Source: Simplicispira psychrophila DSM 11588 (lineage in GTDB: Bacteria; Pseudomonadota; Gammaproteobacteria; Burkholderiales; Burkholderiaceae_C). Taken from it: a stretch of 64,000 nucleotides of DNA. Below the pieces are notes generated by a model, which saw only the letters and a list, made by a program, of their open reading frames with translations, was not told the origin of the DNA and searched no databases. Below, piece by piece: positions 647 through 64,000 of the stretch. Within the stretch, counting starts at the first letter, position 1, and every line of letters starts with the position of its first letter. Location of the stretch: the NCBI RefSeq assembly GCF_000688255.1, contig NZ_JHYS01000003.1, forward strand, positions 248,001 to 312,000, in the 5' to 3' direction. The position numbers and the translations under genes are program-made.

Positions 647-2356
647 ATGGCACTGATTGAAATAAAGGTTCCCGACATTGGCAGCACCGACGAGGTTTCG
701 GTGATTGAAGTGTTGGTCAAGGTCGGCGACAGCATCAAGGCCGAACAATCGCTGATCACCGTCGAGTCCGACAAGGCCTCGATGGAGATCCCGTCCAGCC
801 ACGCCGGCGTGGTGCAGGAGCTGCGCGTCCAGTTGGGCGACCAGGTCAAGGAGGGCAGCGTGGTGCTGGTGCTGCAAGCCGAAGGCGCTGCAGAATCGGC
901 ACAAAATACAGCTCCAGCCCAATCTGTACCAGCGCCTTCAGCTATTAAAAATGAAGTGCCTGCGGCGCCACCAGCAGCGCCTGAAGCTGCCCCTGCAGCG
1001 GCCCCGGCCGCCGCCAGCGGCCCAATCGAACTGCGCGTGCCCGACATCGGTGACTTTAAGGACGTCTCCGTGATTGAAGTGCTGGTCAAAGCCGGCGATA
1101 CCGTCACGCTGGAGCAGTCACTGTTCACCATCGAGTCCGACAAGGCCTCGATGGAAATTCCTTCGCCCATGGCGGGTGTGATCCAGTCCTTGACGGTCAA
1201 GGTCGGTGACACCGTGAACATTGGTGATCTGGTCGGGCTGATTGAAGGCGTGGCTGCAGCTGCAGCACCGGTAGCAGCACCCGCTGCGGCGGCGATTCCA
1301 GCTCCTGCAGCTGCTCCTGCTGCAGCTGCGACGCCCACGGCAGCAGCAGCCAGCGCTGCACCGGCCACCACTGCTGTGCCGGCGCACAACCCGACAGCCG
1401 CCCCCACCGGCCAGTTGGCGCACGCTTCGCCCTCGGTGCGCAAATTTGCCCGTGAATTGGGCGTGCCGCTGACCGAAGTGCAGGGCAGTGGCCGCAAGGG
1501 CCGTATCACGCAGGAAGACGTGCAGTCGTTTACCCAATCGGTGATGCGCGGCACGTTGCAGACGGCAGCGCAACAGGCGGTGCAACCGAAAAGCGCAACA
1601 CCCGGTACGGGGACGGGCGCTGGCCTGGACTTGTTGCCCTGGCCCAAGGTCGATTTCGCCAAATTCGGTGCTATCGAACGCAAGGACCTGTCGCGCATCA
1701 AGAAAATCAGCGGCGCCAACCTGCACCGCAACTGGGTGATGATTCCGCACGTCACCAACAACGACGAAGCTGACATCACCGAGCTGGAGGCCTTCCGCGT
1801 CTCGACCAACAAGGACAACGAAAAGAGCGGCGCCAAGGTGACCATGCTGGCGTTTGTCATCAAAGCGGTGGTCGCAGCGCTGAAGAAATTCCCCGACTTC
1901 AACGCCAGCCTGGACGGCGATACGCTGGTCTATAAGCAGTATTTCAACATCGGTTTTGCTGCAGACACGCCCAACGGGCTGGTGGTGCCGGTGCTGAAAG
2001 ACGCTGACAAAAAAGGCATCTTGCAAATCAGCGCCGAGATGGGCGAACTGGCGAAAAAAGCACGCGATGGCAAGCTGGGCGCAACGGATATGCAGGGCGG
2101 TTGCATGTCGATTTCGTCGCTTGGCGGTATTGGGGGCACGCACTTCACACCGATCATCAACGCGCCTGAAGTAGCGATTCTGGGACTGTCCAAGGGCCAG
2201 CTGAAGCCCGTGTGGGACGGCAAACAGTTTGTGCCGCGCCTGGTGCTGCCGCTGTCGCTGTCCTACGACCATCGCGTGATCGACGGCGCGTCGGCGGCGC
2301 GTTTCAACGCCTATCTGGGCCTGGTGCTGGCGGACTACCGCCGCATCCTTCTCTAA
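647..2356 (+). CDS. aceF: Pyruvate dehydrogenase E2, dihydrolipoamide acetyltransferase (two lipoyl domains)
   Basis: The 569-residue core subunit transfers acetyl from lipoyl-lysine to CoA. Two lipoyl domains carry the ESDKASME motif, with lipoyl-lysines at about K43 and K166. Ala/Pro-rich linkers follow, then a peripheral subunit-binding domain (about 259-297, SPSVRKFARELGV) and the catalytic domain with the active-site histidine in YDHRVIDG (about H542). An SD-like GGGAG lies before the ATG. The first linker (residues 88-101) is encoded by a copy of the 42-bp dispersed repeat described below, which explains the SAIKNE stretch in an otherwise Ala/Pro-rich linker. Confidence 0.97.
   Translation: MALIEIKVPDIGSTDEVSVIEVLVKVGDSIKAEQSLITVESDKASMEIPSSHAGVVQELRVQLGDQVKEGSVVLVLQAEGAAESAQNTAPAQSVPAPSAIKNEVPAAPPAAPEAAPAAAPAAASGPIELRVPDIGDFKDVSVIEVLVKAGDTVTLEQSLFTIESDKASMEIPSPMAGVIQSLTVKVGDTVNIGDLVGLIEGVAAAAAPVAAPAAAAIPAPAAAPAAAATPTAAAASAAPATTAVPAHNPTAAPTGQLAHASPSVRKFARELGVPLTEVQGSGRKGRITQEDVQSFTQSVMRGTLQTAAQQAVQPKSATPGTGTGAGLDLLPWPKVDFAKFGAIERKDLSRIKKISGANLHRNWVMIPHVTNNDEADITELEAFRVSTNKDNEKSGAKVTMLAFVIKAVVAALKKFPDFNASLDGDTLVYKQYFNIGFAADTPNGLVVPVLKDADKKGILQISAEMGELAKKARDGKLGATDMQGGCMSISSLGGIGGTHFTPIINAPEVAILGLSKGQLKPVWDGKQFVPRLVLPLSLSYDHRVIDGASAARFNAYLGLVLADYRRILL
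909..950 (+). repeat. 42-bp dispersed element inside the aceF linker
   Basis: The spacing is 12-9-6-4-11: CAGCTCCAGCCC, 9 nt, CAGCGC, 4 nt, AGCTATTAAAA. It is preceded by CAAAAT, as in several other copies. The right half fits the consensus closely and the left 12-mer is degenerate. It is in frame and encodes part of the first inter-lipoyl linker. Confidence 0.6.
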
Positions 2357-2414
2357 ACCTTGCGGGACAGACCAAAGCAGCGCTTTGCTCTGTCCCCAAC
2401 TGATTGGAAAAAAG

Positions 2415-4283
2415 ATGGCAACGATAGACATCCAAGTGCCGAACATCGGCGACTTTGCTGAAGTTACCGTGATCGAATTGCTGGTGAAACCCGGCGACAC
2501 CGTGGCAGCCGACCAGAGTCTGGTCACTGTTGAATCCGACAAAGCCTCGATGGAAATCCCGTCCAGCCACGCCGGCGTGGTGCAGGCGCTGCACGTCAAG
2601 CTGGGCGACAAAATCGCTGAAGGCAGCCTGCTGGTGACATTGCAGGCAGAGGCTGGGGCGGCTCCTGCTCCAGCAGCTACTCCTGAAAAAGTAGCTGCAA
2701 GCGCTGGTATCCAAACGGTTACAGCATCAAAACAACCTGAAAACCTTGCAGCGCGTGCGGTAGCAGCTCCTATAAACGCAGTACCTGCTTACGCTGGCAC
2801 GGTGGATATGGAGTGCGATGTGCTGGTGCTGGGCGGCGGCCCCGGTGGTTATTCCGCCGCTTTCCGTGCCGCCGACCTGGGGCTGAAGGTGGTGCTGGTC
2901 GAGCGCTACGCCACATTGGGCGGCGTGTGTTTGAACGTCGGCTGCATCCCGTCCAAAGCGCTGCTGCACGTCGCGGCGGTGATGGACGAGGTCCGCCACT
3001 TGGCTGATCTGGGTGTTGATTTTGGCCGTCCGGTGGTCAACATCGACCAACTGCGCGGCCACAAGGAAAAAGTCATCGCCAAGCTCACCGGCGGTCTGGC
3101 GGCGATGGCCAAAATGCGCAAGGTGACCACCGTGCGCGGCTACGGCAGCTTTGTCGGCGCGCACCATTTGACGGTGGAAGCAACCACCGGCAGCGCGCAA
3201 GAAAAGACCGGCGCCAAGCAGGTGATTGGCTTCAAAACCGCCATCATTGCCGCCGGCAGCCAAGCGGTGCGCCTGCCGTTCATGCCCGACGATCCGCGCG
3301 TGGTCGATTCGACCGGTGCGCTGGAGCTGAAAGACGTGCCCAAGCGCATGTTGATCCTGGGCGGCGGCATCATCGGCCTGGAAATGGGCACGGTGTACTC
3401 CACCTTGGGCGCGCGCCTGGATGTGGTGGAAATGCTGGATGGTTTGATGCAAGGCGCTGACCGTGATCTGGTCAAAATCTGGCAGAAGATGAACGCCAAG
3501 CGCTTCGACAACATCATGTTGAAGACGAAAACCGTGGGTGCCGAAGCCACGCCCGAGGGCATCAAGGTGACGTTCGCTGCCGCCGAAGAGGGCGGAACAG
3601 CACCCGAACCACAAACCTACGACTTGGTGCTGCAAGCCGTGGGCCGCACGCCTAACGGTAAAAAAATAGCCGCCGACCAAGCCGGCGTGGCCGTAACCGA
3701 GCGTGGCTTCATCAACGTGGACATCCAGATGCGCACCAACGTGCCGCACATCTTCGCCATCGGTGACATCGTCGGCCAGCCGATGCTGGCGCACAAAGCC
3801 GTGCATGAGGCGCATGTGGCGGCGGAAGTGATTGCCGGGGAACTGCAAAACAATAAGGAGCTGGCCAGCAGCGCCTTCAATGCCCGTGTGATCCCGTCGG
3901 TGGCCTATACCGACCCCGAGGTGGCCTGGGTCGGCCTGACCGAAGACCAGGCCAAGGCGCAGGGCATCCAGATCAAAAAGGGTCTGTTCCCGTGGACAGC
4001 GTCCGGCCGTGCCATTGCCAACGGCCGCGACGAGGGCGTCACCAAGCTGCTGTTTGACGACAGCCCGGAGGCGCATGGCCACGGCAAGATCCTGGGTGGC
4101 GGCATGGTCGGCACGCACGCTGGCGACATGATTGGCGAGATCGCTCTGGCGATTGAAATGGGTGCCGACGCGGTCGATATCGGCAAGACCATCCACCCGC
4201 ACCCGACGCTGGGCGAGAGCATCGGCATGGCCGCCGAAGTGGCGCATGGCAGCTGTACCGACCTGCCGCCGGTGCGCAAATAG
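2415..4283 (+). CDS. lpdA: Dihydrolipoamide dehydrogenase (E3) with N-terminal lipoyl domain
   Basis: The 622-residue FAD enzyme reoxidises dihydrolipoamide with NAD+. Residues 1-80 form a lipoyl domain (lipoyl-lysine about K43). After a linker comes the pyridine nucleotide-disulphide oxidoreductase: FAD motif LGGGPGGY (from about residue 139), redox pair C172/C177 in GGVCLNVGCIPSK, NAD motif GGGIIGLE and the C-terminal HPHPTLGES dimer/active-site motif. A fused lipoyl domain is known for beta-proteobacterial pdh operons. I chose the ATG at 2415 (preceded by GGAAAAAAG) over an in-frame TTG at 2385 because the lipoyl fold starts there. Linker residues 91-104 come from a 42-bp repeat copy. Confidence 0.96.
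   Translation: MATIDIQVPNIGDFAEVTVIELLVKPGDTVAADQSLVTVESDKASMEIPSSHAGVVQALHVKLGDKIAEGSLLVTLQAEAGAAPAPAATPEKVAASAGIQTVTASKQPENLAARAVAAPINAVPAYAGTVDMECDVLVLGGGPGGYSAAFRAADLGLKVVLVERYATLGGVCLNVGCIPSKALLHVAAVMDEVRHLADLGVDFGRPVVNIDQLRGHKEKVIAKLTGGLAAMAKMRKVTTVRGYGSFVGAHHLTVEATTGSAQEKTGAKQVIGFKTAIIAAGSQAVRLPFMPDDPRVVDSTGALELKDVPKRMLILGGGIIGLEMGTVYSTLGARLDVVEMLDGLMQGADRDLVKIWQKMNAKRFDNIMLKTKTVGAEATPEGIKVTFAAAEEGGTAPEPQTYDLVLQAVGRTPNGKKIAADQAGVAVTERGFINVDIQMRTNVPHIFAIGDIVGQPMLAHKAVHEAHVAAEVIAGELQNNKELASSAFNARVIPSVAYTDPEVAWVGLTEDQAKAQGIQIKKGLFPWTASGRAIANGRDEGVTKLLFDDSPEAHGHGKILGGGMVGTHAGDMIGEIALAIEMGADAVDIGKTIHPHPTLGESIGMAAEVAHGSCTDLPPVRK
2686..2727 (-). repeat. 42-bp dispersed element inside the lpdA linker
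   Basis: Read on the plus strand it runs AAAAAGTAGCT, 4 nt, GCGCTG, 9 nt, CGGTTACAGCAT. This is the inverted consensus with the same 11-4-6-9-12 spacing, and GTTACAG is identical to the dapE copy. It lies in frame between the lipoyl and FAD domains. Confidence 0.65.
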
Positions 4284-6732: not shown

Positions 6733-6812
6733 GGTATTTATCCTAATTTACATTACTGATCTGCAAAGATCGTAACAGCGTATGAAATTCTCTGCGCCGG
6801 TCGTCGATATCA

Positions 6813-6854
6813 AAACAATAGCTGTCAGCGTAGGTAGATAGAGCGTTTGTGGCC
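6813..6854 (-). repeat. 42-bp dispersed element, intergenic
   Basis: Plus-strand reading is AAACAATAGCT, 4 nt, GCGTAG, 9 nt, GCGTTTGTGGCC, the inverted consensus with exact 11-4-6-9-12 spacing. It lies between the divergent chemoreceptor and methyltransferase genes. Confidence 0.6.
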
Positions 6855-6916
6855 CAAAATACCCTGAAAATAGCCAGCGCCTCCGCTTTTTTCTTACATC
6901 TCCTGTGCATTCCTGA

Positions 6917-10101: not shown

Positions 10102-10179
10102 GGCTTAAAAATAAGTGGCTAGCACGCTGCTCTTAGTCCGATAAAAATCTCTCCAATGGCACACAATCAAAGGTCAGAT

Positions 10180-10200
10180 AAGCGCTTGTAGCTATATATA
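10180..10200 (+). repeat. Half copy of the 42-bp dispersed element
   Basis: AAGCGC, 4 nt, AGCTATATATA, followed by AAGGAGCAAT, matches the right half and the downstream tail of the 45746-45787 copy. The left 12-mer is not recognisable. Confidence 0.5.
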
Positions 10201-10348
10201 AAGGAGCAATCCAGGCGGTCTTGTGAGTCAGCTTCCTGCAAGCGGGGGTCTCAATAATTATGAATTCAGAATTTGTCTTTCGCCGTAAGTGTTCCACGGT
10301 AGGCCTCTAGGCTTGGCGTGGTGCAGCCACTATTCAAGGAGCCCCCGC

Positions 10349-12406: not shown

Positions 12407-12435
12407 GTTTTTAATAAAAACCATAACTAAAATAA

Positions 12436-12477
12436 AATTCATAGCTTAACGAGAATAAGGGGGTCGAGTAAAAGGTC
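12436..12477 (-). repeat. Degenerate 42-bp dispersed element
   Basis: Plus strand: AATTCATAGCT, 4 nt, GAGAAT, 9 nt, GAGTAAAAGGTC, then ATTTC. The spacing is conserved but about a third of the consensus positions differ. Confidence 0.35.
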
Positions 12478-12543
12478 ATTTCTAGCTCTATACCCCACAC
12501 CATTGGTACCTTCTGCCTCGAAAATACTCGGGAAGAGCAAGCG

Positions 12544-13095
12544 CTACGCCAGATCGATCAGATGCAGCTCAAAATGTCCCCGCTGGCGGTCAGCAAAGTA
12601 ATGCTGCAAAGTCTCTTTCACAGTACGAAAAGCTAACTCATCCCACGGAATTTCATCTTCTGTAAATAAACGTGCTTCCATGGTCTCGAAACCCGGCTTG
12701 AATTGGTCGCTGAGCAGTGCAGCACGGTAATACATATGTACCTGCCCAATCAGTGGAACATTCAACAAACTGAACAGGGGGCCTATTTCAAACTGCGCAC
12801 CAGCTTCTTCGTCGGTTTCACGGGCAGCACCCTGGGATGTGGTTTCGTTCAATTCCATGAACCCGGCAGGTAACGTCCATTTGCCCAGCCGCGGCTGAAT
12901 ATTGCGTTTGCACAGAAGCACACGGCCATCGGGCAGCACCGGAATGGTGCCAACGACATTAAGCGGGTTTTCATAGTGGATGGTGTGGCAGGCAGGACAT
13001 ACAGCGCGCACGCGCGTATCACCATCGTCGGGCAGGCGGTACTCCACGGCGCTGCCGCAGTGGCGGCAATACTGAACAGGACTGCGTAAGATCAT
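12544..13095 (-). CDS. Nudix hydrolase with N-terminal zinc ribbon
   Basis: A 183-residue protein. The N-terminus has a CxxC...CxxC zinc ribbon (CRHCG, CPAC), followed by a Nudix fold whose box, beginning GFMELNE and ending RETDEEAGA, fits GX5EX7REUXEEXGU completely. Zinc-ribbon Nudix proteins hydrolyse NAD(H)-like or other dinucleotide substrates; the exact substrate is open. It is transcribed leftward, convergent with prpE. Confidence 0.92.
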   Translation of the reverse strand: MILRSPVQYCRHCGSAVEYRLPDDGDTRVRAVCPACHTIHYENPLNVVGTIPVLPDGRVLLCKRNIQPRLGKWTLPAGFMELNETTSQGAARETDEEAGAQFEIGPLFSLLNVPLIGQVHMYYRAALLSDQFKPGFETMEARLFTEDEIPWDELAFRTVKETLQHYFADRQRGHFELHLIDLA

Positions 13096-13117
13096 GGCAC
13101 GAGTTTTGTATGAAATA

Positions 13118-13159
13118 GGCCTGTAACGCTTATGTGGTAAGCGCTGACAGCTATCAAAA
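13118..13159 (+). repeat. 42-bp dispersed element, type copy
   Basis: GGCCTGTAACGC, 9 nt, AAGCGC, 4 nt, AGCTATCAAAA. This intergenic copy agrees with the dapE copy at all 29 defined positions and is used here as the reference. It lies upstream of the Nudix start and downstream of the FAH-family gene. Confidence 0.8.
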
Positions 13160-13207
13160 TAAAGTTATACTGCGGTACTGTCGTTGCCGCCCAGACGCTT
13201 GAGTGCC

Positions 13208-13903
13208 TCACACCACCTGCAGTCGCAACAGACTGAGCCCCTCGATCCCTGCCTCCAGCAGATCGCCCGGCACTACCGCGCCTACACCTTCGGGCGTGCC
13301 GGTATAGATCAAATCGCCAGGCTGCAGCGCCCAGGCAGCAGACAAATGTTCAATGGTTTCGGCAATGCTCCAGATCAATTGGGCAACGCTGCTGCGCTGG
13401 CGCTCCTGACCATTCACCTGTAGCCAGATGGCCGCTTGCGTTAAGTCGCCTGCCTGCTCAACAGGTGTGATCGGACCGATGGGCGCGCTATGGTCAAAGC
13501 CCTTGCCAATGCACCAAGGCCGGCCTTGTTTTTTCATATCATTTTGCAAATCACGCCGCGTCATGTCCAAGCCGACGGCATAGCCATAGACATGCTGTAG
13601 GGCGGTGGCAGCAGGAATATTTTTGCCCTCTTTGCCGATCGCCACGACCAGTTCAACTTCATGGTGCAGATTGGCTGTCAGACTGGGGTAGTGAAGGGTG
13701 CCGATCTCTTCTGCGTTGACGGGTACCACCGCATCAGCTGGTTTCATGAAGAAAAATGGCGGTTCGCGGCCGCTGAAACCCATCTCTTTGGCATGCTCGG
13801 CATAGTTGCGTCCGACACAGTAAATGCGGTGTACGGCAAAACGCGCGGCAGATCCCAGTACCGGTACGCTGGCGACAACAGGCGGAGAAAATACGTAGTT
13901 CAT
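13208..13903 (-). CDS. Fumarylacetoacetate hydrolase (FAH) family protein
   Basis: A 231-residue protein with the FAH catalytic domain: YCVGRNYAEHAKEMG, the metal ligands in HHEVELVVAIGK (Glu pair), YAVGLDMTRRDLQ, and GDLIYTGTPEGVG near the C-terminus. The size and motifs resemble FAHD1/fumarylpyruvate hydrolase or oxaloacetate-decarboxylase-like enzymes. The substrate is not determined. Confidence 0.9.
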   Translation of the reverse strand: MNYVFSPPVVASVPVLGSAARFAVHRIYCVGRNYAEHAKEMGFSGREPPFFFMKPADAVVPVNAEEIGTLHYPSLTANLHHEVELVVAIGKEGKNIPAATALQHVYGYAVGLDMTRRDLQNDMKKQGRPWCIGKGFDHSAPIGPITPVEQAGDLTQAAIWLQVNGQERQRSSVAQLIWSIAETIEHLSAAWALQPGDLIYTGTPEGVGAVVPGDLLEAGIEGLSLLRLQVV

Positions 13904-14041
13904 GCAGGCCTTTCTAGTTTGCTTTTAGCGAGCGGGCAGTGTGCCACGCGGACCATGCGCACCGTACACTGGCGCCATGAAGGCCCTCGGTACTGTTGAG
14001 ATTTTTATGTGCTCCATGCTGGCATTACGGCAGTGTCACCC

Positions 14042-14917
14042 ATGATGACTGCCCAGGCAGGCGGCCCAGATCCCGATTGGCTACGCCCTGACTGGCCAGC
14101 ACCAGGGCACATCCATGCGCTGTGCACGACCCGCGCCGGTGGCGTGAGCGCAGCGCCATTTGATAGCCTGAATTTGGGCGATCACGTTGGTGATATGCCC
14201 GCAGCCGTACATACCAATCGCCAGGTATTACAGGCTGCGCTGAATGCCATCACGCCAGGTACACAGCCTGTATTTTTGCAACAGGTGCATGGCACAAAAG
14301 TGCTGGATCTGCTGGAGAGGGAGGGCGCATTGCCAGCAGATTCCTGTGCTGATGCTTATGCCACCACGGCTGAGGGCCTGGCCTGCACCATTATGGTGGC
14401 CGACTGCCTGCCCGTGCTGCTGACCAACCGCCAAGGCAGCGCCGTAGCTGCGGCCCACGCCGGCTGGCGTGGGTTGGCGGGCACCGATGGCCTAGGCATT
14501 CTGGAGACGTTTTATAAGCATTTTGTGACGCTAATCCAGGCGCAACAAGCGCCCGTAGCTATCAAAAACGAAGCAATTGAAAATTCAGACATGGCAGCTG
14601 ACCTTTTGGTTTGGCTCGGCCCGTGCATTGGTCCCCAGTCGTTTGAGGTCGGCGCAGAAGTGCGTGCCATCTTTTGTGCCCACGACAGTGCCGCTGCCGT
14701 ACATTTTGTGCCCTATGGCCCAAGCAAATACCGGGCTGATCTGGCGGCCCTGGCGCGCCAGCGTCTGCGCGCACTGGGTATCACGCAGATCTATGGCAAC
14801 GACGGCAGTGCCGAATGGTGCACGGTGGCCAACCCTTCACGTTTCTTCTCGCACCGGCGCGACAGTGCCACTTTGGGTGCTAGCGGACGCTTTGCCGTCT
14901 GCATCTGGCGCGGTTGA
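14042..14917 (+). CDS. pgeF: PgeF/YfiH (LACC1) family multicopper-fold nucleoside phosphorylase
   Basis: A 291-residue protein with family motifs TTRAGGVSAAPFDSLNLGDHVGD, QVHGTKV, MVADCLPVLL, AAHAGWRGLAGT and WLGPCIGPQSFEVG. The zinc site is formed by the conserved His/Cys residues in these motifs. The family acts as purine nucleoside phosphorylase and adenosine deaminase in other species. An unusual extra segment of about 25 residues sits between HAGWRGLAGT... and WLGPCIGP, and part of it (QAPVAIKNEA) is encoded by the 42-bp repeat. The start could be 14042 or 14045; a GTG at 14009 is less likely. Confidence 0.85.
   Translation: MMTAQAGGPDPDWLRPDWPAPGHIHALCTTRAGGVSAAPFDSLNLGDHVGDMPAAVHTNRQVLQAALNAITPGTQPVFLQQVHGTKVLDLLEREGALPADSCADAYATTAEGLACTIMVADCLPVLLTNRQGSAVAAAHAGWRGLAGTDGLGILETFYKHFVTLIQAQQAPVAIKNEAIENSDMAADLLVWLGPCIGPQSFEVGAEVRAIFCAHDSAAAVHFVPYGPSKYRADLAALARQRLRALGITQIYGNDGSAEWCTVANPSRFFSHRRDSATLGASGRFAVCIWRG
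14526..14567 (+). repeat. 42-bp dispersed element inside pgeF
   Basis: The right half is exact: AAGCGC (14547-14552), 4 nt, AGCTATCAAAA (14557-14567). The left 12-mer is not convincing. It is in frame and encodes QAPVAIK, the same peptide register as in dapE (QAPLAIK) and aceF (PAPSAIK). Confidence 0.6.
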
Positions 14918-21636: not shown

Positions 21637-23768
<2,132 letters not shown>

Positions 23769-35235: not shown

Positions 35236-35266
35236 GGCGGCGATTATCCCCGCCGACGGGCATTAA

Positions 35267-35308
35267 AAATAATAGCTGCTAGTGCTTTATGAAAATGGCT
35301 TTCAGACT
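35267..35308 (-). repeat. 42-bp dispersed element, left member of an inverted pair
   Basis: Plus strand: AAATAATAGCT, 4 nt, GTGCTT, 9 nt, GGCTTTCAGACT. Exact spacing. Its partner lies at 35336-35356 in the opposite orientation. Confidence 0.55.
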
Positions 35309-35335
35309 GTTTTAATACTGAAAACCAAGCAAATA

Positions 35336-35356
35336 AAGCGCTGCCAGCTATCATTT
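35336..35356 (+). repeat. Half copy of the 42-bp element, right member of the pair
   Basis: AAGCGC, 4 nt, AGCTATCATTT. With the left member it makes an imperfect inverted repeat spanning 35264-35360 between dusA and the acyl-CoA synthetase gene. Confidence 0.5.
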
Positions 35357-35384
35357 TTTATGATGCCACAGTCTCTTCACGCCC

Positions 35385-40981: not shown

Positions 40982-40985
<4 letters not shown>

Positions 40986-42046
40986 GCGCGGCTGTGATGT
41001 CCCCCCAGACGTCCACGGTGTCCCCAGTCGATGCGCTGTACCAAGCCCTGCTGCACGGCACCCCGGCGCAACAGCGCCGCGCCGTGGCCAAGTCCATCAC
41101 GCTGCTGGAATCCACCCGCAACGACCACCGCGCCCAAGGCGACGCACTGCTGACGCAACTGCTGCCGCACACCGGCAAAGCGCTGCGTTTGGGCATCAGC
41201 GGCGTGCCGGGGGTTGGCAAATCGACGTTTATTGAAACGCTCGGCCTGCACCTGATTGATAAAGGTCTGCGCGTCGCGGTGTTGGCAATTGACCCGTCCA
41301 GCACGGTGTCGGGCGGCTCCATCTTGGGCGACAAAACGCGCATGGAGCATTTGTCGATGCGCGAAGAGGCCTATATCCGCCCCAGCCCTAGCAGCGGCAC
41401 GCTCGGCGGCGTGGCTGAAAAAACCCGCGAAGCCATGCTGGTCTGCGAAGCGGCGGGCTACGACGTGGTGATTGTCGAAACCGTCGGTGTCGGCCAGTCG
41501 GAGACCACGGTGTGGGGCATGACCGATATGTTCGTGCTCTTGCAACTGCCCAACGCCGGCGACGAATTGCAGGCGATTAAAAAAGGCGTGATGGAGATTG
41601 CCGACTTGGTGGTCATCAACAAGGCCGACATTGATCCGCACGCCGCCACGCGCGCGCAGGCGCAAATCACCTCGTCGCTGCGCTTGCTCGGCCTGCACGG
41701 CACGGCGGGTAACGAGCGCCACGACAGCAGCTTTTGGCAACCCAAAGTGCTGCAAATCAGTGCCTTGGAGCGCACCGGCGTTGATGATTTTTGGGCCGCG
41801 GTGAGCGAATTCAACAGCCTGCAAACCGCCAACGGCAAACGCGATAAACGCCGCCAGCAGCAAAACATGGCGTGGATGTGGCAGCGCATCGAGGCCGGTT
41901 TGAAGCAAGCCTTCCACCAAGACGCACGCGTGCAAGCGCTGTTGCCCAGCGTGCTGGCCGATGTATCCGCCGGACGCATTGCCGCATCGACTGCAGCACG
42001 AAATATGCTTGCAACCCATATGGGACAAGCGCAAGTAGCTATTTAA
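40982..42046 (+). CDS. meaB: Methylmalonyl-CoA mutase-associated GTPase (MeaB/ArgK)
   Basis: A 354-residue P-loop GTPase that protects and reloads the B12 mutase. Walker [10 protein letters not shown] (about 73-81), switch regions [18 protein letters not shown] and [10 protein letters not shown], and base-recognition NKAD. A GTG start overlaps the mutase stop (GTGA); ATG 40997 is an alternative. The last dozen residues and the stop codon come from a 42-bp repeat copy, so the normal C-terminus may have been replaced. Confidence 0.95.
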
Positions 42047-42047
42047 T
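42006..42047 (+). repeat. 42-bp dispersed element forming the meaB 3' end
   Basis: TGCTTGCAACCC, 9 nt, AAGCGC, 4 nt, AGCTATTTAAT. The TAA inside the last block is the meaB stop codon (42044-42046). Left-block agreement is 8 of 12. Confidence 0.6.
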
Positions 42048-42082
42048 CAATAGCAAAATAACCAATTCAACGAGGACGAACT

Positions 42083-45709: not shown

Positions 45710-45735
45710 AAAAAGGGGCTTCGTGCCCCTTTTTT
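45710..45735 (+). terminator. Rho-independent terminator after pccA
   Basis: AAAAAGGGGC pairs with GCCCCTTTTT around a TTCGT loop, followed by T. It separates the mcm-pcc operon from the VOC gene. Confidence 0.9.
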
Positions 45736-45745
45736 AAGTCTTTTC

Positions 45746-45787
45746 AGCCTCTAGCCCTTTAGATACATGCGCTAATAGCTATTAAAA
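45746..45787 (+). repeat. 42-bp dispersed element, intergenic
   Basis: AGCCTCTAGCCC, 9 nt, ATGCGC, 4 nt, AGCTATTAAAA, then TAGGAGCAAT. Exact spacing; it immediately precedes the VOC gene and its GGAGC may act as that gene's ribosome-binding site. Confidence 0.7.
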
Positions 45788-45804
45788 TAGGAGCAATATT
45801 CCAT

Positions 45805-46275
45805 ATGACCAACAGCACCCGTCCTTTCAAAGTCCTCGGCATCCAGCAAATTGCCATTGGCGGCACCGATAAAAACCGCATGAAAGCCCTGTGGGTGGAC
45901 ATGCTGGGCCTGACGCAAACCGGCACCTTCCAGAGCGAACGCGAGAACGTCGATGAAGACATCCTGGCGATGGGGCAGGGTGCCTACAAGGTCGAAGTGG
46001 ACCTGATGCAGCCGATGGACATCGATAAAAAGCCCGCCGTCCACACCACGCCGTTGAACCACATCGGCCTGTGGATTGACGACCTGCCCGTCGCCGTCGA
46101 ATGGCTGACCGCGCAAGGCGTGCGCTTTGCTCCCGGTGGCATCCGCAAGGGCGCAGCCGGTTACGACATCACTTTTCTGCACCCCAAAAGCAACGAGCAA
46201 TTCCCGATTGCCGGCGAAGGTGTGCTGATTGAGCTGGTGCAAGCCCCGGCGGACGTGATCGCTGCGCTGGGGTGA
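45805..46275 (+). CDS. VOC family protein, methylmalonyl-CoA epimerase-like
   Basis: A 156-residue vicinal-oxygen-chelate protein with two beta-alpha-beta-beta-beta modules. Context (pccA upstream) argues for the epimerase that converts (S)- to (R)-methylmalonyl-CoA. However the first metal-ligand position, His in the typical DHIGIAV, is Gln here (IQQIAIGG); the later NHIGLW histidine and the terminal IELVQ glutamate are present. Activity is therefore uncertain. GGAGC precedes the start. It overlaps the next gene by GTGA. Confidence 0.8.
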
Positions 46276-49053: not shown

Positions 49054-49085
49054 TCAAAAACACCTGCCGCAGCAGGTGTTTTTGA
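49054..49085 (+). terminator. Rho-independent terminator after bioB
   Basis: A 14-bp perfect stem (TCAAAAACACCTGC with its complement) closes a CGCA loop with a U-rich right arm. The right arm runs directly into the repeat at 49080. Confidence 0.85.
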
Positions 49086-49112
49086 TAGCTTAAAGCGCAA
49101 GCGCTACAAGGG
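49080..49112 (-). repeat. Shortened dispersed element (9-nt spacer missing)
   Basis: Plus strand: TTTTGATAGCT, 4 nt, GCGCAA, GCGCTACAAGGG. All four blocks are present but the 9-nt spacer is absent. Confidence 0.6.
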
Positions 49113-49128
49113 TTGCATAGCGTTTTGA

Positions 49129-49320
49129 CTACTTTTTCATAGGGCAAGTGTTCATGCCCAGCAGCGTGTAAGCCGGGCAGAAACTAAACACGCTGGTGGC
49201 CAAAGGAATCACGCCCAGCCAACCCCACCAACCGACCGTACCGGTAGCGGCCAAGCCAATCAGCACCAAACCTACGACGGCGCGCAAGCTGCGGTCCACC
49301 GTTCCAACATTGACTTTCAT
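49129..49320 (-). CDS. DUF2892 (YgaP-type) small membrane protein
   Basis: A 63-residue protein beginning MKVNVGTVDRSLRAVVGLVLIGLAA, with two helices separated by GWWGWLGVIPLATSVFSFCPAYTLLG. This is the typical DUF2892 domain, fused to rhodanese in E. coli YgaP but stand-alone here. The FCPAY cysteine and the terminal NTCPMKK are conserved in the family. It is in a leftward pair with the next gene, next to an ArsR regulator. A longer in-frame extension lacks features and is rejected. Confidence 0.88.
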   Translation of the reverse strand: MKVNVGTVDRSLRAVVGLVLIGLAATGTVGWWGWLGVIPLATSVFSFCPAYTLLGMNTCPMKK

Positions 49321-56945: not shown

Positions 56946-56964
56946 GCCACAACTAAAGCTATAT

Positions 56965-57006
56965 TTTTGATAGCTGCTAGCGCTTATCCAGTAAGCATTA
57001 AAGGCC
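56965..57006 (-). repeat. 42-bp dispersed element, intergenic
   Basis: Plus strand: TTTTGATAGCT, 4 nt, GCGCTT, 9 nt, GCATTAAAGGCC. Exact spacing and near-consensus; it lies between gloA and eda. Confidence 0.75.
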
Positions 57007-57019
57007 TTTTTACTGATAT

Positions 57020-57658
57020 TTATTGCAGACCCACAGCGGCACGTGCCAGTGCCGTGATACGCGCCCAGTCACCCTGATCTAGCGCGTCCTGCGACACCAG
57101 CCACGAACCGCCGACGCAGGCGACGTTGCGCAGCGCTAAAAAATCGGGCGCATTGCCGGCATGAATGCCGCCAGTGGGGCAAAACAGCACGTCACCAAAC
57201 GGGCCTTGCCAGGCTTGCAGCATAGCCAAACCGCCGGCTTGCAAGGCGGGGAAAAATTTTAGTACCTGCAGTCCCTCTGCTTGCGCTTGCATGATTTCGC
57301 TGGCTGTCGCTACGCCGGGCAGCAGCGGCAGTTGTACATCACGGCTGGCCTGGGCGACGGCGGCGGTCAGTCCGGGGCTGACCAGAAAGCGCGCCCCCGC
57401 CGCACTGGCGCTGCGCGCGTCGCTGGCGCTGCGCACGGTGCCGGCGCCGACCACGGCACCGGGGACGTCGCGGGCTATCGCTTCTATGCAGGCCAGGGCG
57501 GCTGGGGAGCGCAGTGTCACTTCCAACATACGAATGCCACCCGCCAGAAGCGCGCGTGCCATCGGCGCTGCGTGCTCCACTTTGTGCAGCACGATGACCG
57601 GAATGACGGGTGCGTCGCGCACCACATCGAGGGCGCTCAAGGGTGTGTTCAGAGCCAT
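57020..57658 (-). CDS. eda: KDPG aldolase (2-dehydro-3-deoxy-phosphogluconate aldolase)
   Basis: A 212-residue class I aldolase of the Entner-Doudoroff pathway. The Schiff-base lysine is about K134 in VLKFFPA, the general base about E46 in EVTLRS, and [16 protein letters not shown] binds phosphate. The ATG at 57658 overlaps the end of edd by 10 bp; the longer in-frame extension lies inside edd and is rejected. It closes the edd-eda operon. Confidence 0.95.
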
Positions 57659-63649: not shown

Positions 63650-63710
63650 AAGTGGCAACCAGCCAGCAATCGAAGCAGCATTAGTATGATTTTAGTTTTG
63701 GGCGCATCAA

Positions 63711-63752
63711 TGTCGATAGCTAGTACCGCAAGCAAAAATGGCGTTTCAGGTA
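63711..63752 (-). repeat. 42-bp dispersed element, first of a head-to-head pair
   Basis: Plus strand: TGTCGATAGCT, 4 nt, CCGCAA, 9 nt, GCGTTTCAGGTA. It faces the copy at 63759. Confidence 0.7.
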
Positions 63753-63771
63753 TTTTTAACCCTGAAACGCC
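63740..63771 (-). terminator. Hairpin formed by the paired repeat ends
   Basis: GGCGTTTCAGG and CCTGAAACGCC form an 11-bp perfect stem with a 10-nt loop; on the minus strand a T5 run follows (CATTTTTGC). It could terminate the TonB-receptor transcript. Confidence 0.65.
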
Positions 63772-63800
63772 CTGTTTACCTGCGGTTTAAGCTATCAAAA
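63759..63800 (+). repeat. 42-bp dispersed element, second of a head-to-head pair
   Basis: ACCCTGAAACGC, 9 nt, CTGCGG, 4 nt, AGCTATCAAAA. Exact spacing. The paired copies make a nested inverted repeat of about 90 bp. Confidence 0.7.
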
Positions 63801-63804
63801 AAGC

Positions 63805-64000
63805 TTAGAAAGCCACCTTCACACCGATTGCCATACTGCGCCCCATCAGCGGCGCGGCACTCTTGATGAACGAGGTGTGCGCATAGGCCAAACGGTTGGT
63901 CAGGTTGTTGGCCTTCGCATACAACTGCCACGGCATTCCGTTGATGTGCGCGCTGTAGGTCACGCCCAGATTCAACATGCCGTAGCCAGGGGTGGCGGTT
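63805..64000 (-). CDS. TonB-dependent outer-membrane receptor, C-terminal fragment
   Basis: The last ~65 residues of a beta-barrel receptor whose gene continues past the window edge. The final strands (LNLGVTYSAHINGMPWQLYAKANNLTNRLAYAHTS) match the TonB-dependent receptor C-terminus, with the NNLTN turn and a terminal Phe that the barrel assembly machinery recognises. The substrate (siderophore, metal or B12) cannot be told from this piece. Confidence 0.85.
   Translation of the reverse strand, partial: TATPGYGMLNLGVTYSAHINGMPWQLYAKANNLTNRLAYAHTSFIKSAAPLMGRSMAIGVKVAF

Follow-up and report, generated by a model that had tools for sequence, protein, structure and literature searches.

The sequence at positions 13,118 to 13,159 raises the question of what kind of unit recurs throughout the 64,000 nucleotides analysed here (the window), and whether it moves as an element, acts through RNA or is recognized as DNA. 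An ungapped 68-bp profile, trained on exact seeds and then iterated, finds 19 sites in the window (Table 1) and 105 in 452 kb of the same genome (contig C3, 1-312000, window included, and C1, 80001-220000), all of which score above the highest of six block-shuffled controls (14.1 bits). All 18 places listed in an earlier, sequence-only reading are among the 19 window sites, the extra one being 2718-2785 (+). The weakest window site (12426-12493, 19.6 bits) falls below the 22-bit cut applied in later analyses.

Table 1. Profile sites in the window, with their gene context and the corresponding sequence in relatives (G numbers denote genomes)
Position	Strand	Score (bits)	Context	Relatives
893..960	+	49.3	Inside pyruvate dehydrogenase E2 gene (ORF 647-2356; lipoyl stretches and acyltransferase identified), linker between lipoyl domains	
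2676..2743	-	46.5	Left of head-to-head pair; dihydrolipoyl dehydrogenase gene (ORF 2385-4283), linker after lipoyl domain	Part of the pair missing from the G120 orthologue (gap)
2718..2785	+	47.4	Right member of 2676 pair; not in earlier list	as above
6803..6870	-	49.7		
10143..10210	+	35.3	Weak left block	Sites in the gap in G010 and G004 (40 and 36 bits); none in G120, G128, G141 (at most 3 bits)
12426..12493	-	19.6	Weak; above the control maximum	
13102..13169	+	66.8	Site of the original finding	Site-like sequence at same place in G004 and G010, weaker in G128; none in the gaps of G141 and G120
14510..14577	+	42.9	Inside pgeF (ORF 14009-14917, TIGR00726)	Similar sequence at same place in 4 further genomes; G128 site 42 bits
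19764..19831	+	57.1		In the gap, G010 site in opposite orientation (52 bits), G141 weak (18), G120 and G004 none
22304..22371	-	45.5	Inside prmB (ORF 21637-22569, TIGR03533)	Site-like in 5/5 aligned genomes, 4 of them other genera
23527..23594	-	61.8	Inside dapE (ORF 22566-23750, TIGR01246)	
35257..35324	-	54.7	Left of head-to-head pair	
35299..35366	+	35.9	Right of 35257 pair	
41990..42057	+	60.0	Spans end of ORF 40982-42046	Similar sequence at same place in G004
45730..45797	+	72.8	Window's best; just upstream of ATG of ORF 45805-46275	
49070..49137	-	34.3		
56955..57022	-	65.8		
63701..63768	-	45.8	Left of head-to-head pair	
63743..63810	+	38.7	Right of 63701 pair	

Extent, copy number and distribution of the motif

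Conservation spans positions -38 to +29 (68 bp), counted from the start of AGCGC, and is flat outside (38 seeds). The 42 bp originally taken as the unit correspond to -22 to +19, and the copies at 49080, 10180 and 35336, once described as shortened or half copies, score as full-length (34.3, 35.3 and 35.9 bits). The constant internal spacing described earlier is borne out: the spacer between left and right blocks is exact in 97 cases of the 452-kb sample, off by ±1 nt in 5 and further off in 2, against 1 block pair in all in one block-shuffled sequence. In 600 kb of Comamonas testosteroni NFYY023 (G128) the corresponding values are 130, 17 and 14, with 4 in all in the control. The motif carries 45.9 bits of information in its own genome and 39.5 bits in G128. 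Both orientations are equally used, as the sequence-only reading had held (51 of 105 sites on the + strand), and its estimate of roughly one copy per 4 kb agrees with a density of 0.23 per kb, which extrapolates to about 840 sites in the 3.6-Mb genome if the rest of the genome is alike. Genome-wide, the pattern AGCGCN4AGCTATNAAAA (at most one mismatch) has 72 + 68 matches as compared with 0 + 0 for the reversed pattern, and every one of the 150 profile matches scored, of 2156 candidates, has E <5e-11. A replication-strand polarity, suggested by the listed G004 and G128 matches being all on the + strand, was rejected, since the first 200 kb of these genomes give 15/28 and 27/51 sites on +.

The sequence-only reading described similar sequences as common in intergenic DNA of Comamonadaceae, with no named family known. 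Searches of the literature did not find it described, and the pattern GCGCTNNNAGCTAT has at least 10 matches in 24 of 150 same-family genomes, 0-9 in the other 126 (the reversed control never exceeds 8) and at most 3 in each of 141 genomes from 141 other families of the class. Counts are 317 in the own genome, 215 in G010, 187 in G085, 185 in G136, 170 in G072 and 155 in G128. In 80 named loci around dapE, most of them about 20 kb long and a few far shorter, one or more sites above 22 bits occur in 51 and none in 29. Site-bearing records are named as Acidovorax, Giesbergeria, Simplicispira, Comamonas, Curvibacter, Rhodoferax, Polaromonas, Ottowia, Ramlibacter and Extensimonas, these being the genus names of the sequence records, some of which are metagenome bins. 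Site-free loci include Delftia, Limnohabitans and Paracidovorax konjaci, anthurii and oryzae; loci of Paracidovorax wautersii and valerianellae carry sites. A merged profile found no sites in 20 loci (386 kb) picked for having none in the dapE-locus scan. Separately, 25 of 80 loci scanned in the IMG/VR viral collection (out of at least 120 stretches) have sites above 22 bits, in some cases two or three of them, in phage or flanking host DNA, and the other 55 have none above that cut.

Single sites, head-to-head pairs and gene position

The own-genome consensus (nATTtanngTnAAATnnGcCTnTAACcCTTatnnnacaAGCGCTAncAGCTATTAATTtaAtAGtant) forms an imperfect palindrome centred on -5 and has further, looser symmetry around -25.5 and +18, and the 68-bp pattern is made of partly symmetric half-sites, which appear to recur every 20-23 bp, together with A/T tracts. 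The +18 symmetry exists at the level of the consensus only, pairing being worse between the halves of one copy than between those of different copies (z -3.5 and -2.1). The 159 sites found in the 600 kb of G128 form 122 loci, 85 of them singles and 37 close pairs; 36 of these pairs are head-to-head (-+) with centres exactly 41 bp apart, and the remaining one has a distance of 40. Among the eight close pairs of the own 452 kb, five are head-to-head at 41 bp, two tail-to-tail at 24 bp and one lies at 46 bp; the three head-to-head pairs of the window (2676/2718, 35257/35299 and 63701/63743) all have centres 41 bp apart. The sequence-only reading, correct as to a dispersed unit of fixed spacing, had missed this paired architecture along with the 68-bp extent and the number of coding copies.

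Head-to-head pairs share the -25.5 symmetry centre, and in G128 their inner half becomes CTGAAATC, the whole forming a palindrome of about 110 bp. The halves of a pair match one another better than swapped halves do (z 4.5, P 0.0002), and pairs fold strongly (MFE of -39.7 kcal/mol versus -34.3 kcal/mol for chimaeras); this covariation could also arise by inverted duplication. In singles, swapping halves between copies makes pairing no worse (z -0.9 in G128, -0.2 in the own genome), RNAalifold finds no structure in 79 aligned copies, and Rfam gives 0 matches in the window at gathering threshold and 0 at E<=1 on 13050-13220. The hairpin signal is confined to the pairs. Lacking arm-to-arm covariation, singles are not kept as hairpins, and, taken together with the empty RNAalifold and Rfam searches, this indicates that the single form behaves as a DNA-protein motif rather than as a hairpin.

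According to the heuristic gene calls of a simple hexamer caller built for this analysis, coding sequence contains 35 of 99 own-genome sites, and of the other 64, 2 lie in divergent gaps. In G128, sites occupy 2/31, 12/18, 14/15 and 5/11 convergent gaps of <80, 80-150, 150-300 and 300-2000 bp, respectively, 14/121, 19/72, 17/80 and 9/31 tandem gaps of the same size classes, and 0/3, 0/12, 2/27 and 5/32 divergent gaps. Sites favour gene 3' ends, above all convergent gaps, and are scarce in divergent (promoter) gaps. Within tandem gaps of G128 the median distance of the site edge is 2 bp to the stop upstream and 30 bp to the start that follows, the site being nearer the stop in 39 of 60 cases; 84 of 500 genes (17%) have a site near their stop. 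Along the G128 chromosome, loci are spaced more evenly than matched random placement would have them (mean 4.9 kb, CV 0.71 versus 0.92 +- 0.08, P 0.001). Of the smaller samples, own C1 (P 0.005) and G128 over its first 200 kb (P 0.0005) show significantly even spacing, unlike own C3 (P 0.23) and G004 (P 0.34).

Change in place, coding constraint and joint loss

Orthologous positions are common to several genera, and all aligned relatives show the dapE, prmB and pgeF sites. Intergenic sites are patchier than these three, several of those in the window being missing in some of five relatives. In alignments that span a site at 80% nucleotide identity or more, the site is present in 228 comparisons, substituted in 77 and missing by indel in 3; below 80% identity the corresponding counts are 3142, 3759 and 162, all of these comparisons being ordered and non-independent. 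Forty of the indel cases below 80% identity have flank identities of only 0.34-0.68.

Two conserved genes allow carriers and non-carriers of the site to be compared. In prmB (tblastn, 77 hits; 65 of 81 genes parsed, 5 of them between the carrier and non-carrier classes), a loop of 37 residues is the commonest length in both classes (20 of 32 carriers, 7 of 28 non-carriers), with ranges of 32-38 in carriers (plus one misparse of 67) and 31-38 in non-carriers. In dapE, 44 of 77 scorable genes (4 of 81 were not parsed) carry a site above 22 bits, 27 score at or below 0 and 6 lie between. The segment concerned is 19 residues long in most carriers; in non-carriers it ranges over 12-23, with 14 the commonest length and 19 in five; as these lengths overlap, length is no mark of carriage. 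The outer parts of the dapE motif are codons that non-carriers also possess, recoded in place: over the nine outer motif codons, third-base A/T reaches 0.70 in carriers versus 0.17 elsewhere in the same genes, and 0.23 versus 0.19 in non-carriers, with TTA in 22 of 44 and ATA in 33 of 44 carriers at outer motif codons. Likewise, third-base A/T in prmB carriers is 0.64 inside the motif versus 0.21 outside, and over the same loop 0.48 in carriers versus 0.19 in non-carriers. Since the carriers in these codon tests were picked by motif score, the codon bias is partly a product of that choice; what matters is that the motif can be fitted into so many conserved genes.

In subject loci that hold at least two other sites, locus richness being judged without the tested site, identity is 77.5% at informative positions, 66.2% at uninformative positions and 73.6% in flanks. 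In loci with no other site, the values are 57.4, 67.0 and 74.5%. The tested site is still scored present in 1988 of 2668 comparisons in the former group versus 114 of 991 in the latter; the queries having been chosen as sites, some drop toward background is expected, and the evidence is the contrast between the two groups. The simplest reading is that selection acts on the DNA letters and is relaxed where the motif family has been lost.

Some own-genome copies, three of them within 1.6 kb, share variable spacer letters despite unrelated flanks, and copy-pair identity reaches 55/68 as compared with shuffled maxima of 45-50. Near-identical spacers within unrelated flanks indicate that limited copying happens. 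One stretch of the own genome (C3:201-217 kb) holds seven sites in 15 kb, several with the common spacer CCTTTAGATACGTGCGC, suggesting local copying or conversion.

A putative docking site and its rivals

The best reading of the sites is that of a protein-docking signal kept by selection, mostly at gene 3' ends, rather than of jumping DNA. Tentatively, and with slightly less than even confidence, we regard the motif as a genome-wide recognition site for a putative sequence-specific DNA-binding complex of some Comamonadaceae lineages. An oligomeric protein would dock on successive half-sites and may thereby organize or insulate the chromosome where genes end, at intervals of some 4-5 kb; pairs, with their co-varying arms, probably double as bidirectional terminator hairpins. 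This reading is supported by the rigid spacing, the lack of covariation in singles and the orthologous sites in several genera, by the DNA-level constraint within coding sequence, the change in place and the joint loss, and by the convergent-gap position and even spacing in G128. Nucleoid- and chromosome-organizing sites such as matS, parS and BIME-gyrase likewise provide many genomic sites for one DNA-binding machinery, as the putative docking site would; the 68-bp motif differs from them in being far longer and more informative. Against docking, 40-46 bits are far above the approximately 13 bits that, by our own arithmetic, are needed to mark 840 places. Such excess information is unusual for a plain binding site and is more in line with drive or copying. 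Roughly one own-genome site in three is coding, where insulation of gene ends does not apply, and the patchiness of intergenic sites, the occurrence of some copying and the lack of significantly even spacing in own C3 and G004 also weigh against it.

The main rival of the docking reading, in our view unlikely but to be weighed seriously, is a DNA-uptake-type self-recognition sequence: competent cells would prefer DNA that carries the motif, and biased uptake followed by recombination would spread it by point change (molecular drive). The USS of Pasteurellaceae and the DUS of Neisseriaceae are uptake sequences spread by biased uptake. The available text of PMC7811141 has USS evolving by point mutation rather than by insertion, with inverted pairs at gene ends acting as terminators, and uptake sequences have cores of 9-12 bp in the available portions of PMC1939737, PMC7811141 and PMC3630211. 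As far as these portions describe them, Haemophilus USS and Neisseria DUS resemble the 68-bp motif in being high-copy, on both strands, coding as well as intergenic, and subject to evolution by point mutation; A/T-tract flanks are shared with USS, and inverted pairs serving as terminators and dialects between lineages with USS and DUS. Indeed, the motif is over-represented on both strands, within genes and between them, and changes by substitution rather than insertion, and its inverted pairs at gene ends, excess information, consensus differences between genera and lineage-specific absence agree with an uptake sequence. All 24 motif-rich genomes of the sample have a ComEC match (in pieces in G003). 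However, at 68 bp and 40-46 bits, with several half-sites, the motif is far longer than the cores described in those texts, and an uptake function does not directly predict the marked excess of sites in convergent gaps. ComEC (144/150) and DprA (148/150) are present in the family sample whatever the motif count and thus do not discriminate. The single HHH_3 match of G128 falls in an 801-aa frame, which we take to be Tex, and a ComEA-like gene was not seen there; a second HHH_3 match, not necessarily ComEA, occurs in 13 of 14 motif-rich genomes and is absent from G128. The TIGR00426 matches listed are mostly in frames of about 800 aa, presumably also Tex, and were not counted as ComEA. The ComEC, DprA and ComEA searches do not separate motif-rich from other genomes. 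Our literature search found no report of uptake sequences in this bacterial family. In the moderately motif-rich G003, the ComEC match (C1:1836740-1837544) is in three pieces in different frames, the gene being broken or the sequence containing errors.

That the motif is instead a non-autonomous mobile element of REP or MITE type, moved by a RAYT or some other transposase and since then domesticated in part, is improbable. REP, BIME and REPIN sequences are palindromic, mostly intergenic, biased to 3' ends, present in hundreds per genome and arranged in inverted pairs. The 68-bp motif resembles these RAYT (TnpA-REP)-associated repeats in its dispersal, hundreds of copies per genome, palindromic form, mostly intergenic location, 3'-end preference and inverted pairs, and the near-identical spacers of copies with unrelated flanks are in keeping with mobility. 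It differs from them in changing by substitution rather than by insertion, in the absence of hairpin selection in singles and in lacking the GTAG/CGTC tag at the foot of the stem: the tag was not found beside the stem in the profile, which shows just a loose RNAG some 11 nt further out, at +22 to +25. Membership of the RAYT-associated REP class was rejected on the last two grounds. Insertion as a unit of MITE or IS type was rejected too, given that substitutions outnumber indels, with 3 clean indels between orthologues at 80% identity or more, and that the prmB loop length is common to carriers and non-carriers; the overlapping dapE lengths and the recruitment of outer dapE codons in place also speak against mobility. 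The dispersed-element interpretation of the sequence-only reading, in the sense of an IS- or REP-like unit, is therefore not upheld, the sites being orthologous, changed mostly by substitution and associated with no fixed-length insertion in conserved genes.

Observations on RAYT-like genes point both ways. The RAYT-like gene of the own genome, which scores 75.7 against an NCBIfam cut-off of 80, is overlapped by a site at its stop codon; a site lies at the stop in 9 of the 20 RAYT-like genes that could be parsed from 21 loci, and Y1_Tnp matches occur in 22 of 24 motif-rich versus 90 of 126 other genomes. Yet the RAYT cases represent one syntenic locus, 84 of 500 G128 genes have a near-stop site anyway, and presence of the motif is just loosely tied to RAYT, the motif-rich G141 having no Y1_Tnp match and the motif-rich G095 not being among the matching genomes. 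A second palindromic repeat, GGGGTCAGANTC.AATTA with its complement, noted at own C1:184400-185340 and own C3 near 206.6-207.3 kb, borders the RAYT-like gene at both ends and recurs near some 68-bp sites. An exact GGGGTCAGA or GGGGTCACA occurs on one strand or the other in 18 of the 20 loci whose RAYT-like gene was parsed, and the second repeat is a likelier candidate than the 68-bp motif for the REP of the RAYT itself. Partial IS200-like Y1 transposase matches at the starts of C5 and C16, at C16:85574 and at C22:37263 (two at contig ends) are separate from the single RAYT-like gene of the own genome.

Among described repeats of related bacteria, the Bordetella BRE repeat is, in the available text of PMC3110155, reported in Polaromonas, Rhodoferax, Delftia and Acidovorax, with some copies in genes; it is about 90 bp long, has 69% GC in Bordetella, is often tandem in variable number and reaches at most 29 copies per genome. 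On that description, BRE shares host genera and some intragenic copies with the 68-bp motif and differs from it in length, GC content, tandem arrays and copy number.

An RNA-level element, acting as a bidirectional intrinsic terminator or an mRNA-stabilizing hairpin, would account for the convergent-gap preference, the stop-codon position and the strong folding and co-varying halves of pairs, and is very improbable given that singles, which make up 85 of 122 G128 loci, show no selection for pairing, that about a third of own sites lie inside coding sequence and that Rfam has no match.

Returning to the docking reading, the sites would belong to a putative family-specific chromosome-organizing system, in which an oligomeric DNA-binding protein occupies about 800 rigid insulator sites of 68 bp (single) or about 110 bp (paired), mostly between convergent genes. 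Such a system would dictate A/T-ending codons in conserved metabolic genes and would have been lost, along with its jointly decaying sites, in whole lineages. Equally, they may constitute an uptake self-recognition sequence outside Pasteurellaceae and Neisseriaceae, far longer than those described. That the motif represents one or the other is, on balance, rather probable. Hundreds of long, exact sites in each genome of common environmental bacteria, selected at the DNA level even within genes and missing from particular lineages, imply a genome-wide machinery, for DNA binding or for self-recognition, of an undescribed kind, and the existence of sister lineages that have retained or lost the sites makes its cognate factor findable by comparison of gene content.
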